A stretch of DNA of 34,345 bases from Methanocellales archaeon (GCA_030610945.1 JAUWQV010000001.1:89901-124245), one strand, 5' to 3'; numbered from the stretch's first letter, positions 16,803 to 30,062 are shown. The notes: generated from the letters alone by a model not told the origin. Translations and numbers: made by a program.

Positions 16803-16912
16803 TGCTCCGGCCGGGATTCGAACCCGGGTCTTCGGCTTTCTTCCCACCTTTTTTAAAAAGGTTGAAGGTTGTTGAAAGGCCGGAATGATTGGCCGGACTA
16901 CACTACCGGAGC
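16803..16912 (-). tRNA. tRNA-Glu(TTC) with 35-base intron
   Basis: The acceptor GCTCCGG (16912-16906) pairs with CCGGAGC (16810-16804), with discriminator A at 16803. The T-arm is CCGGG-TTCGAAT-CCCGG. The anticodon loop is C-T-TTC-A with anticodon TTC. An intron at 16838-16872 interrupts positions 37/38. The last intron bases GAAG pair with loop bases CTTT to form the 4-bp central helix of a canonical bulge-helix-bulge. One oddity is a C-A pair at 27-43 of the anticodon stem. It starts only two bases after the tRNA-Met 3' end, so both come from one precursor. Confidence 0.92.
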
Positions 16913-16914
16913 AA

Positions 16915-17090
16915 TGGGCCCGATGCGATTTGAACGCATGACCGCTCGGTGTCCCACTTTTTTTCCGTTAACGCTTTTGCGAGTAGAGTGCCTGCTTCGC
17001 AGGCACCTGACCACTTACGCAGTAAGTGGCGCAGCGAGGAAAAGGGTTAGTTATGAGCCGAGCGCTCTAACCAGACTAAGCTACGGGCCC
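16915..17090 (-). tRNA. tRNA-Met(CAT), elongator type, with 101-base intron
   Basis: Acceptor GGGCCCG (17090-17084) pairs fully with CGGGCCC (16922-16916), with discriminator A at 16915. The D-arm reads GCTTAGTCTGGTTAGAGC, the anticodon stem CTCGG/CCGAG, the loop C-T-CAT-A-A, and the T-arm ATGCG-TTCAAAT-CGCAT. The G1-C72 pair excludes the archaeal initiator. A tRNA-Ile with modified CAT cannot be wholly excluded. Exon 1 is 17052-17090, exon 2 16915-16950, and the intron 16951-17051 sits at 37/38. The intron bases TGGG pair with CTCA of the loop (one G-T) for the bulge-helix-bulge. Ninety of the 101 intron bases are identical to the tRNA-Leu intron. Confidence 0.93.
16960..17049 (-). repeat. 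Structured 90-base intron core, copy in tRNA-Met
   Basis: It is identical at all 90 positions to 19742-19831. It folds as a closing stem (TTTTCC/GGAAAA) enclosing two perfect 8-bp hairpins (16988-17006, GTGCCTGC-TTC-GCAGGCAC on plus; 17011-17029, CCACTTAC-GCA-GTAAGTGG on plus) and a small CGC-TTTT-GCG hairpin. In this host it is followed on the minus strand by nine intron bases that complete the splice motif. Confidence 0.95.
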
Positions 17091-17117
17091 TGTGACATCA
17101 AATATACTATCTCGTTA

Positions 17118-17123
17118 CTTAAA
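17118..17123 (-). promoter_or_regulatory. TATA element of the tRNA-Met/tRNA-Glu transcript
   Basis: TTTAAG on the minus strand is centred about 31 bases before the tRNA-Met 5' end, giving a short leader. It is the best TATA-like element in the gap. Confidence 0.45.
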
Positions 17124-17185
17124 CCTAATTAATGGCATGCACAGAACAACAATAAATAAAGGCAGCACCATACAAAAAGATAACC

Positions 17186-17635
17186 ATGGTCATAGAGGTC
17201 ATTCATGCATTTGGACACGAGAACATCACAGCCAAGCACAGAACCACGTTTGAGATCACCAAGGACTCCGAAATTATGAAGAGAGCAGACTGCATCATCG
17301 CTGTATCGGCTGATAAAGGAGCAAACGACCTCTCCCGGCAGTTCAAAAAAGTAGCGAGTCGACCGGATGCCATAATTATAGTGGACCTCTGGGCAGGTGG
17401 AGCACATGAACAAATAATTGGACGCGGTCACCCTAGTCTAAAGTTTGAGCATCTCACTGACCTGGTCGGACGAACAAGTTCACATACATGCCCCAGAACG
17501 TTGATGATTCACGCGGATAAGGCAGCGTTTCACCTCAACCAAGAATTTGTAAAAAGGATTCAACACAGGGATGCGCGAATAAAGGTCACGCTAACTGCGA
17601 GGTCTGGAGCGAATGGGCAGCTCGTGTATCATTAA
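17186..17635 (+). CDS. DUF371 conserved archaeal protein
   Basis: The 149-residue protein matches the archaeal DUF371 family by IHAFGHENITAKHRTTFEIT, RADCIIAVSADKG and HPSLKFEHLTDLV. No function is known for the family. His and Cys residues (HAFGH, C36, HTC) could hold a metal but there is no recognised motif. ATG 17186 lies about 30 bases after AATAAATAAA, so the message may be leaderless. It overlaps the minus-strand membrane protein gene by 45 bases at its 3' end. Confidence 0.85.
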   Translation: MVIEVIHAFGHENITAKHRTTFEITKDSEIMKRADCIIAVSADKGANDLSRQFKKVASRPDAIIIVDLWAGGAHEQIIGRGHPSLKFEHLTDLVGRTSSHTCPRTLMIHADKAAFHLNQEFVKRIQHRDARIKVTLTARSGANGQLVYH

Positions 17636-17947
17636 TTGTATGATGACGGCGCTTGCAACCATGCAAACTGCAAGCGAAGAGACCATTATCTCCCACCCAG
17701 GCAATTTGCCCCCTATGCAGTACTTGATGCTACCTATAATCGCTGTGATGACGAATGCTGATGAAACTGCAAGGACCGCCCCGCCAATCAACGACCGAAG
17801 TTGAGATGCGCCTTTTGCATCAAAGAACACAGAGCCGATTATGAAGGAGAGAGCGCCTATCATCAATATTAATGCAGGATGAATTGGAAGCCCAGATTCG
17901 AATAGATACAGCACCCCAAATGCAATTCCAAGCATTACCAGCGCCAT
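17591..17947 (-). CDS. Small four-helix membrane protein, unknown
   Basis: The 118-residue protein has four hydrophobic helices: the N-terminal VMLGIAFGVLYLF, ALILMIGALSFIIGSVFF, a third around AVLAVSSAFVITAIIG, and IMVSSLAVCMVASAVII, with a basic C-terminus. I do not recognise the family. The frame is open further upstream to 18001 and reads REIKPNYFVEALAISIAMALV, which looks like real protein, but it contains no ATG, GTG or TTG start. An ATT at 18001 lies six bases after a run AAAGGGGGGGAAA that could serve as binding site. The real start may thus be ATT, or the ATG at 17947 used without a binding site. Confidence 0.6.
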   Translation of the reverse strand: MALVMLGIAFGVLYLFESGLPIHPALILMIGALSFIIGSVFFDAKGASQLRSLIGGAVLAVSSAFVITAIIGSIKYCIGGKLPGWEIMVSSLAVCMVASAVIIQLMIHELPIRSRPRS

Positions 17948-18103
17948 AGCGATGGAAATTGCCAGCGCCTCGACAAAATAGTTGGGCTTAATTTCCCTAA
18001 TCTATTTCCCCCCCTTTATCGTAGATATTATCTTTATAGTTTATAAGTTAACTCAATGGATAAATCTATATCTATTAAACATAAGTTGCCTATTGGATGC
18101 AAA

Positions 18104-18442
18104 ATGGCAGAAAAGAACAGAGCAAAGCAGAGATTTAAAGACATGGTCAGCCATTTTGCCAAGTATCACCCATTGGAATGTCCATATAAAGTGGTATGCA
18201 TAGCCCCTGCTGAAGCGTGTCCAAAAGACCCGGAGAGAATCCCACGAACTATCACAGCAGTTCGCCCGCCCGACTGCTTTATCAGAAGACCGAGGAAATG
18301 GTACGAAGAGGAGTGGGTAGACCTCAGGACCACATCCTGGGTAGAGGTTTTATCCCTCCAGAAGCCATTGCTGTTCGTTCTATTCATAATAGCCACAGTC
18401 GTGTTCTTCTTCCTCGTCACCGTCCTGACGGTCATAACATAG
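18104..18442 (+). CDS. Unknown cysteine-containing protein with C-terminal membrane helix
   Basis: The protein is about 112 residues. A basic N-terminal region (MAEKNRAKQRFKDMVSHF) is followed by four cysteines (LECPYKVVC, EACPKD, PDCFI) that could bind a metal, then a short acidic stretch, and one hydrophobic helix at the C-terminus (LLFVLFIIATVVFFFLVTVL), as in a tail-anchored protein. An in-frame ATG at 18056 would add 16 residues that are less typical of coding sequence. TATA-like elements exist for either start. I know no family for it. It is convergent with the class II aldolase gene, overlapping by 11 bases. Confidence 0.6.
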   Translation: MAEKNRAKQRFKDMVSHFAKYHPLECPYKVVCIAPAEACPKDPERIPRTITAVRPPDCFIRRPRKWYEEEWVDLRTTSWVEVLSLQKPLLFVLFIIATVVFFFLVTVLTVIT

Positions 18443-18986
18443 TTCTCGCCTGAATTATCCTGTTCAACGCTTCTCCTATGTTTTCTCCAATTGAGAGGAT
18501 GCCGTGCCTTTCCATTGCCACAAGACTTCCTCGTTCAAGCGCGGTCAGCACGTTCTGTGCCAGTTCCAGGGTGCCGTAGGGCGCGTATTTAGCCATGGGA
18601 ATGTTCAGTTCATTATAATGTGCTAATAGCAAATCGTCATGCACATGTATAACTGCCTTGCAACCAAGTTTTGTATAAATCAAGCAGTGTAAAGGCGTTT
18701 CAGAACTGGGCTCTTTAGAGCCAACGACCTTGACGATGTTTTGTTCTTGGTCGTATTCCTTGAGTAGAACTACGTCTTCCTCTTTCAAACCGCCTAGCCG
18801 GGCTCCGCCTGCCGTTATCAAAATTCCATCGTCAACCCTTATGCTCAGATTGCCAAAAAAGTTAGGCGTCATACCCAGCAACTTGAGTTTTTTGCCCGTT
18901 TCAATCATCTCGCGCATCTCGCGCTCGTGAGCTATATTATCTTTGACGAAAATGGTCCTGAACTTGCGCCCCATATAATGTTCCAT
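18432..18986 (-). CDS. Class II aldolase/adducin-family protein
   Basis: The protein is about 184 residues. It matches the fuculose-phosphate aldolase/adducin fold: TPNFFGNLSIRVDDGILITAGG, SSETPLHCLIY (Glu), VIHVHDDLLL (two zinc His), MAKYAPYGTLELAQNV and MERHGILSIG (third His). All zinc ligands are present, so it is probably an active aldolase or epimerase. The substrate is unknown. ATG 18986 (preceded by GAGGAATC) is preferred over the longer start at 19001, which lies inside deoC. It follows deoC directly, so both may act in one sugar-phosphate pathway. Confidence 0.85.
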   Translation of the reverse strand: MEHYMGRKFRTIFVKDNIAHEREMREMIETGKKLKLLGMTPNFFGNLSIRVDDGILITAGGARLGGLKEEDVVLLKEYDQEQNIVKVVGSKEPSSETPLHCLIYTKLGCKAVIHVHDDLLLAHYNELNIPMAKYAPYGTLELAQNVLTALERGSLVAMERHGILSIGENIGEALNRIIQARTML

Positions 18987-18997
18987 AATAAGATTCC

Positions 18998-19651
18998 TCA
19001 ACCAGAGCCCTCAATTATCTGCACCCCTGCGCTTGTTCCAATTCGGGTGGCTCCAGCCTTAATAAGAGCGACTGCGTCCCTCCACGTGCGAATGCCGCCA
19101 GATGCCTTGACGCCTTTGCCAAACGCCTTTCGCATCAATGTAACATCATGAACAGTTGCCTTGCCACAAAGACCAGTGGAGGTTTTCACGAAATCCACGC
19201 CGGCTTCCTTGGCAAGATGGCATGCTTTTACCTTTTCTTTATCTGTCAAAAGTCCAGTTTCTATGATGACTTTTACAACCTTGCCACCAGCGGCATCAAC
19301 CACTGCTTGTATATCTCGTTTTACTACACCATAATCGCCTGACTTAAAGGCGCCTATATTCATCACCATGTCTATTTCATGCACGCTGTTGCAAATGGCA
19401 TTCTTTGCTTCAAATACCTTAACCTCGGATGTATTAGCCCCAAAAGGAAAACCCACAACTGTGCATACCTTGATATCAGTATCGGCAAGGTATTTCGATG
19501 CAAATTGGACATAGGTCGGGAAGACGCATACCGCGTAAAAACCATGGGTTTTCGCCTCGTCACAGAGTTTCCTGATGTCTTCAAGTGTTGCATCTGGCTT
19601 TAGCAGGGTATGGTCAATCATCTTTGCCAATTTCTCTTTGGAGACACACAT
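18998..19651 (-). CDS. deoC: Deoxyribose-phosphate aldolase DeoC
   Basis: The 217-residue protein is a class I TIM-barrel aldolase: [73 protein letters not shown] with the Schiff-base Lys, and KASGGIRTW with the second Lys, ending RIGTSAG. It cleaves 2-deoxyribose-5-phosphate to glyceraldehyde-3-phosphate and acetaldehyde. It starts 20 bases after the tRNA-Leu 3' end and is probably transcribed with it. The aldolase gene follows. Confidence 0.95.
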
Positions 19652-19670
19652 CCCAGATCCTCGGGTTAAA

Positions 19671-19855
19671 TGCGGGGGGCCGGATTCGAACCGACGAACT
19701 CCTGCGAGAGTAGATCTTGAGTCTACCGCCTTTGGTCAACCTTTTTCCGTTAACGCTTTTGCGAGTAGAGTGCCTGCTTCGCAGGCACCTGACCACTTAC
19801 GCAGTAAGTGGCGCAGCGAGGAAAAGGGTTATTGACCGGACTTGGCTACCCCCGC
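19671..19855 (-). tRNA. tRNA-Leu(CAA) with intron in the D-loop
   Basis: Acceptor GCGGGGG (19855-19849) pairs with CCCCCGC (19678-19672), discriminator A. The anticodon arm is GTAGA-CTCAAGA-TCTAC with anticodon CAA (19719-19717) and is not interrupted. The variable arm is CTC-GCAG-GAG and the T-arm GTCGG-TTCGAAT-CCGGC. The intron, 19732-19831 (100 bases), splits the D-loop: GGTC-AAT-AACC on the 5' side and GGTT-GACC-AAA-GG on the 3' side form a canonical bulge-helix-bulge (GGTC/GACC central helix). Cutting after the second bulge base gives mature GGTCAAAGGC, as expected for tRNA-Leu. The joined exons total 85 bases. Confidence 0.93.
19742..19831 (-). repeat. Structured 90-base intron core, copy in tRNA-Leu
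   Basis: It is identical to 16960-17049. Here the core begins at the first intron base and is followed by ten host-specific bases (GGTTGACCAA) that provide the complement of the D-loop exon for splicing. Confidence 0.95.
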
Positions 19856-29935: not shown

Positions 29936-30062
29936 CGGACACGGGGGGATTTGAACACCCGACATTCGGCTCTCCTCCCGCATCAAAAGAGGTTTTTGAT
30001 CAAACTTTTATTAAAAGTTTGGTTAGAAGGCCGACGCTCTATCCGGGCTAAGCCACGGGCCC
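29936..30062 (-). tRNA. tRNA-Arg(TCT) with 52-base intron and mismatched 3' half
   Basis: The 5' half is regular: GGGCCCG, D-arm GCTTAGCCCGGATAGAGC, anticodon stem TCGGC/GCCGA, loop C-T-TCT-A-A (anticodon TCT). The intron 29972-30023 lies at 37/38; its GAGG pairs with CTTC of the loop for the bulge-helix-bulge. The 3' half deviates: the acceptor reads CGTGTCC instead of CGGGCCC (one G-T wobble, one C-T mismatch at 5-68), and the T-stem GGGTG/CCCCC has a T-C mismatch at 52-62. It may be functional with weak stems, decaying, or affected by sequence errors. Confidence 0.8.

Follow-up and report, generated by a model that had tools for sequence, protein, structure and literature searches.

How did two different tRNA genes come to carry the same intron body? 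The question is raised by a stretch of 34,345 nt from a Methanocellales archaeon (GCA_030610945.1, JAUWQV010000001.1:89901-124245; below, the window). In it a tRNA-Met(CAU) gene with an intron at the canonical 37/38 position and a tRNA-Leu(CAA) gene with an intron in the D-loop, both on the minus strand, have a 90-nt core in common (Table 1). A preliminary description of this DNA had claimed 90 identical bases at the two sites, and a repeat search of the window confirmed it (100% identity across 90 nt); a chance origin of the identity was excluded. When the core was searched for in the 992-kb assembly, as that description had recommended, two full copies were found, both in the window (genome G000, seven contigs, 82% complete). 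We think it quite likely that the 90-nt unit represents an expanded form within a protein-less family of small hairpin cores that moves between and within archaeal genomes, and that one expanded core was copied onto the other tRNA site.

Table 1. Features of the window that bear on the shared intron core
Feature	Position	Strand	Details and basis
tRNA-Met(CAU), canonical 37/38 intron	16915..17090	-	exon 1 17090-17052, intron 17051-16951, exon 2 16950-16915
tRNA-Leu(CAA), D-loop intron	19671..19855	-	exon 1 19855-19832, intron 19831-19732, exon 2 19731-19671
90-nt core copy 1 (TAACCC...GGAAAAA), tRNA-Met intron	16960..17049	-	repeat search; compact 45-nt core at the G003 orthologous site
90-nt core copy 2, tRNA-Leu intron, identical to copy 1	19742..19831	-	repeat search
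Exon-pairing intron tail AAGTGGGAC (9 nt), tRNA-Met	16951..16959	-	fold; ortholog comparison
Exon-pairing intron tail GGTTGACCAA (10 nt), tRNA-Leu, pairs with exon GGTCA	19732..19741	-	fold
Inner hairpin CCACTTACTGCGTAAGTGG of the expanded core, lacking in the compact core	19793..19811; Met copy 17011-17029	-	sequence, fold, G003 comparison
Inner hairpin GTGCCTGCGAAGCAGGCAC of the expanded core, lacking in the compact core	19770..19788; Met copy 16988-17006	-	sequence, fold, G003 comparison
Another tRNA gene, sister-family core in intron (AAACTTTT..AAAAGTTTGATCAAAA)	gene 29936..30062; core 29994-30020	-	Rfam; pattern match G000:C5:119894-119920; N'/N = C/G

The tRNA-Met gene has an Rfam tRNA score of 50.1 bits, and after intron excision ARAGORN scores are 125.4 for tRNA-Met and 123.1 for tRNA-Leu. 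On raw DNA the tRNA-Leu gene was overlooked by Rfam and ARAGORN because of its D-loop intron; it was detected by ARAGORN once the insert was excised. The intron boundaries proposed earlier stand: intron base 3 is the first base of the core in tRNA-Met (AC before TAACCC) and base 1 in tRNA-Leu, and the core is followed by host-specific tails of 9 and 10 nt, respectively. That the tail completes a bulge-helix-bulge was borne out for tRNA-Leu, where the predicted fold pairs exon GGUCA with intron UGACC and has 3-nt bulges on both sides. For tRNA-Met it holds in a relaxed form only: set beside the standard motif, a 4-bp helix between two 3-nt bulges, the predicted fold has the helix (CUCAU paired with GUGGG) and a 3-nt 3' bulge but a larger loop on the 5' side. 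The cores of this family (30-108 nt) contain no endonuclease reading frame, unlike homing-endonuclease introns. Among 4227 Rfam models no family was found for the window cores, which are matched only as part of tRNA; at 36 other loci the matches are to host RNAs only, plus, at L107, matches to group II introns outside the core.

The two sites were compared in genomes G001-G003, which belong to the same genus as the window genome, and G004-G010 of the same order; the nearest named relatives (about 1 Mb each) are Met33H (CP061209.1), Yes46-10, CSMAG_2674, and MAG-838, metagenome genomes labelled Methanocellales or Methanosarcinales archaeon. G003, a single contig whose flanks are 96.1% identical to those of the window genome (2585/2691), also has the two tRNA genes, and at both sites it carries shorter relatives of the core, compact forms of about 45 nt. 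Its Met-site core is TAACCCTTTTCCTCGCTAACGCTCGCAAAAGCGTTATACGGAAAAA, and there are two differences between its Met and Leu cores. The tRNA-Met site is without an intron in the outgroups G007 and G009 and has an intron with a different core in G001, G002, G004, and G006. The tRNA-Leu D-loop has an intron in every member of the order with a readable site, a survey that leaves out G009 (5' exon not recovered) and G006. An AACCC core is found there only in G000, G002, and G003, in the compact form in G002, while G001, G004, G005, G007, G008, and G010 have other introns whose tails still pair with the exon. The expansion of about 45 nt with its two extra hairpins occurs in the window's two copies only. 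Since compact cores are present at both G003 sites and at the Leu site of G002, both sites were already filled when the 90-nt form arose. An empty site before the gain, as in intron gain of the Thermoproteales type, was found in neither case, because the nearest relatives carry another intron at the Met site and the Leu site is occupied in all members of the order in which it could be read. Fresh insertion at empty sites is rejected on the evidence of the orthologs.

The tails tell a different history from the cores. Orthologous introns at the Leu site keep the tails GACCAA, GGCTAA, or GACCAT, and the Met-site tail ending in GGTGGGAGAC in G004 and G006, next to an unrelated core, is similar to the window tail AAGTGGGAC. 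These comparisons indicate that the exon-pairing tail is older than the core. The earlier picture of a mobile body with a host-adapted 3' end is thus upheld in that the body is separable from the tail, but the tail is better explained by core replacement within older introns. It is not credible that the same expansion was gained twice independently, so one core must have been copied onto the other; as judged from the orthologs, a single expansion gave the 90-nt form, which was copied from one already occupied intron into the other. At a divergence of about 2% per lineage, about 3.6 neutral differences per 90 nt would be expected if the copies had been equalised at the split of G000 and G003, and the Poisson probability of zero differences, estimated from the ortholog comparison, is about 0.03. 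The copying was therefore probably later than the split from G003. What is recent is that an expanded core passed as a copy from one filled intron to the other, not that the sites themselves were newly invaded.

We propose that cores of this family would settle mostly as the bodies of bulge-helix-bulge introns and that both window tRNAs would first have carried compact cores. After the split from G003, one core would have gained the two extra hairpins, and the expanded core would then have been copied across 2.8 kb onto the other site, with the identity spanning exactly the core; it would have replaced the core inside a pre-existing intron and left the exon-pairing tail in place. Precursor RNAs would be spliced at the bulge-helix-bulge by the tRNA splicing endonuclease, which would make the core nearly harmless in tRNA and rRNA. 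The comparisons show that cores turn over in introns already in place, whose tails are retained, and that the family is spread over unrelated loci in both orientations; its splicing and mobility we infer from sequence.

The core belongs to a family with conserved ends round a variable hairpin, N'AACCCTTTT-hairpin-AAAAGCGTTN-ACGGAAAA, of which 103 distinct copies were collected from DPANN, Altiarchaeota, Thermoplasmata, and Methanocellales-type genomes. Across 84,980 species genomes, a 20-mer from the 3' part of the core had 67 matching stretches. Archaeal records account for 54 (Methanocellales, Aenigmatarchaeota, Micrarchaeota, Diapherotrites, Woesearchaeota, Altiarchaeota, Thermoplasmata, and unnamed archaea) and bacterial records for the other 13. 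All 13 bacterial matches are without the 5' half AACCCTTTT, as chance would give, and a reversed control pattern gave no match throughout, which excludes chance matching as the source of the family. The two-part pattern recovers 30 of the 32 archaeal genomes having a 20-mer match. The distribution is patchy: within the phylum of one Aenigmatarchaeota genome the pattern is present in 18 of 156 species, and within that of one Micrarchaeota genome in 15 of 245. One two-part copy was found in viral contigs, which also contain 15 further single-motif matches. Tandem core arrays occur with periods of 40, 50, and about 39 nt (L086; G081:C123:18644-18834; L363). Units related to the core lie in many RNA genes and outside Thermoproteales, which supports the preliminary description in part. 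Neither the motif strings nor comparable reports turned up in a literature search, and the family is apparently undescribed so far.

A pairing rule absent from the search patterns concerns the closing base pair of the core. The base immediately 5' of the core (N') and the internal N of GCGTTNACGGAAAA are Watson-Crick complements in 96 of 100 copies, and each of the four pair types is represented; shuffled controls gave a mean of 28 and a maximum of 45. The rule holds outside tRNA (56/58) as well as inside it (40/42), with two additional G.U pairs, and in a deduplicated alignment it holds in 47/47, with four Watson-Crick types and one U.G counted. In 38-nt cores that are otherwise identical between Aenigmatarchaeota, Altiarchaeota, and Yes46-13, the only difference is at N'/N. 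At one orthologous tRNA-Leu site within the genus the pair is C-G, U-A, or U.G (L034, L081, L063), so compensation at the RNA level also acts. The simpler idea that N' is just the host base holds at the 16S site GCCAGCC^GCCGCGG but fails at canonical tRNA introns, where N' is intronic, and at several duplicated targets (L146, L356). N' belongs mostly to the insert.

The same rule governs a sister family with the core N'AAACTTTT..AAAAGTTTN-ATCAAAA, found in 21 of 42 tested genomes, where N' and N are complementary in 75 of 77 copies (shuffle maximum 43); the rule was no part of this search pattern either. About 40 copies lie in an Aenigmatarchaeota genome of about 1 Mb (G085; L104 and L329-L362), many of them intergenic, with 33 hairpins on one strand and seven on the other. 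Viral contigs contain 18 stretches with the sister pattern, and 15 of these follow the N'/N rule. Another tRNA gene of the window has a sister-family core in its intron (Table 1). A further related type is seen in the tRNA gene located 3 nt from tRNA-Met (16803-16912, minus strand), whose intron has its own AACCTTTTT..AAAAAAGGT hairpin.

The copies sit in tRNA genes and in several other kinds of loci. Excision restores a tRNA for about half of the 103 copies, compared with 1/87 for random sites at the same loci (ARAGORN), and several more copies were found by inspection in multi-intron tRNAs. The tRNA copies occupy many different positions. Copies are also present in 16S rRNA at several places, one of them exactly at the GCCAGCC^GCCGCGG site mentioned above, and in 23S rRNA (L196). 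Antisense copies occur in RNase P RNA (L137 and, in the P3 loop, L067) and, by inspection, in tRNA genes (L178, L105). In one Woesearchaeota genome three antisense copies (L095, L098, L171) lie in leaders and abut the ATG start codons; a GGAGG-like motif is provided there by the core's complement, as if it were a ribosome-binding leader. One copy lies in frame in a glycosyltransferase gene of G004, while five orthologs are without it. G005 and G007 of this order have an RNase P P3 loop made up of a plain hairpin, CAACC-GAA-GGTTG; different inserts occupy it in G001, G004, G009, and Yes46-13. With four different inserts among eight genomes, this loop (L254-L260, L067) is an insertion hotspot in the order. 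Two different elements, L246 in the G001 tRNA-Leu intron and L259 in the G004 RNase P RNA, have one inner hairpin, TTCCAGATGGAACATCTGGAA.., in common, which suggests that the apical part is exchanged modularly.

Several other histories could be considered for the two identical cores. The 90-nt intron might have been inserted recently into both tRNA genes, independently or successively; identical cores at different tRNA positions fit such de novo transposition, and Thermoproteales offer a precedent as far as a review relates it (Fujishima 2010, cited in PMC4090602). But it would need two insertions at exactly occupied points with the old tails kept, and compact members of the family, seen in G003 and G002, were there already. 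It is largely refuted by the G003 comparison, we regard it as quite improbable, and the fresh transposition into both sites suggested by the preliminary description finds no support in that form. The same core at orthologous sites, which that description had named as evidence against recent transposition, was found in the compact form and within the genus. Movement through RNA, in which the excised intron RNA, perhaps as a circle, enters a structured RNA by reverse splicing and is then copied to DNA, would suit the roughly half of the copies that are sense in tRNA genes and the others in rRNA, at sites compatible with a bulge-helix-bulge, and circular tRNA introns do occur in archaea (PMC12558985). 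However, reverse splicing would not place copies antisense in RNase P RNA and tRNA genes, in 5' leaders, or in a coding frame, and movement of a whole intron would bring its own tail, but the tails are host-specific. We therefore consider the RNA route unlikely and favour copying at the DNA level, probably by gene conversion or by core replacement through the approximately 45 nt of shared core.

If the cores were instead an ancient conserved motif, inherited vertically and kept identical by strong constraint on the RNA, one would expect the stem pairing, the compensatory changes within the one orthologous tRNA-Leu site, and the strongly conserved flanks of the variable loop that we observed. 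Such constraint would hardly produce the patchy distribution, the different cores at orthologous sites of one genus, the presence/absence variation at orthologous sites, the identical 38-mers at unrelated sites in Aenigmatarchaeota and Altiarchaeota, the intergenic and in-frame coding copies, or an expansion common to only two sites of one genome, and there is little chance that it accounts for the identity. Nor do we find it at all credible that assembly or binning equalised the two cores, even though a 90-nt repeat is shorter than a sequencing read and the assembly is fragmented and incomplete: unique exons flank each core, about 100 related copies exist elsewhere, and assembly duplication is very unlikely because the single-contig G003 has both tRNA genes with compact cores. 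Some points do weigh against copying of an expanded family member as we propose it. The predicted fold of the tRNA-Met intron is without a strict 5' bulge, and with two copies, gene conversion and core replacement are indistinguishable. The conservation of the arms is partly imposed by the search patterns, though neither the AAAA preceding GCGTT nor the N'/N rule comes from them, and most of the genomes are metagenome assemblies with taxonomic labels taken from the records.

The flanks were searched for traces of insertion. A consistent target-site duplication, as expected of miniature inverted-repeat transposable elements (MITEs), was not found in 96 and 77 copies of the two families. Outside tandem arrays, flanking repeats of at least 12 nt occur in 3/96 and 6/77 copies and are positioned beyond the tail, and these counts reject conventional target-site duplication. 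The nine copies carry a 12-21-nt repeat of the 5' flank, which may be a trace of the insertion process. At L146 (an IMG/VR contig), L277, L293, L356, and L212, direct repeats of 16-21 nt of the 5' target, often tRNA ends, lie beyond a short tail; the 9-bp tail of L146 is complementary to the flank. Snap-back copying of the 5' flank was rejected as a general source of tails, since the complementarity is clear in tRNA hosts only and weak elsewhere. A broader reading, which we offer tentatively and hold to be possible though somewhat doubtful, is that of a new class of mobile element in archaea, an "archaeal introner": a hairpin of 30-110 nt moved as DNA across phyla, with N'/N rewritten at each insertion, which swaps into existing introns and hairpins, including the RNase P P3 loop, and can be spliced where a bulge-helix-bulge can form. 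Other direct repeat pairs of the window are 10247-10546/11992-12291 (71%), 6704-6924/7300-7520 (80%), and 2760-2805/3914-3959 (91% identical).

These results bear on the old question of where the tRNA and rRNA introns of archaea come from and how they spread. To our knowledge, tRNA-intron transposition has so far been inferred in one crenarchaeal order, where the unit and the mechanism are not known. The spreading unit can now be named, counted, and searched for. It belongs to a family that passes from phylum to phylum, DPANN symbionts and other archaea included, and core turnover can be separated from the exon-pairing tail. The N'/N rule provides a molecular signature that any mechanism must reproduce. 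In practical terms, annotation of tRNA, 16S rRNA, and RNase P RNA in DPANN is distorted by core inserts.

Eukaryotic introners and MITE-like or repetitive extragenic palindromic (REP)-like repeats are short palindromic repeats that either lie between genes or, on insertion into a gene, turn into introns. Removal here would be by the tRNA splicing endonuclease and not by the spliceosome; unlike MITEs, the cores have no consistent target-site duplication, and no parent transposon was identified, no search for transposases having been made. In Caldiarchaeum, a tRNA-Thr intron was gained by plasmid-type integration of a 1.9-kb segment with a recombinase-like gene (PMC3293823). That gain was likewise at the DNA level, and the partial tRNA duplication beside the insert resembles L146, L277, and L293, whereas the units described here are shorter than 110 nt and most are without duplication. 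The 16S rRNA introns of Thermoproteales (PMC4496867) are also of the bulge-helix-bulge type and in archaeal rRNA genes; by comparison, the rRNA copies reported here are about 30-60 nt long, have no reading frame, and have a core in common with tRNA introns of other genes and phyla. Another close parallel is the transposition of tRNA introns known in Thermoproteales (Fujishima 2010, via the review PMC4090602), with near-identical introns in unrelated tRNAs and positions in a bulge-helix-bulge context. Set against that work as the review outlines it, the present family extends over several phyla, the core alone would be mobile while the tails stay, further copies occupy 16S and 23S rRNA, RNase P RNA (in antisense), 5' leaders, and one coding frame, and the closing pair is variable yet complementary. 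A trans-phylum family that reaches beyond tRNA and follows the N'/N pairing rule appears to be new.

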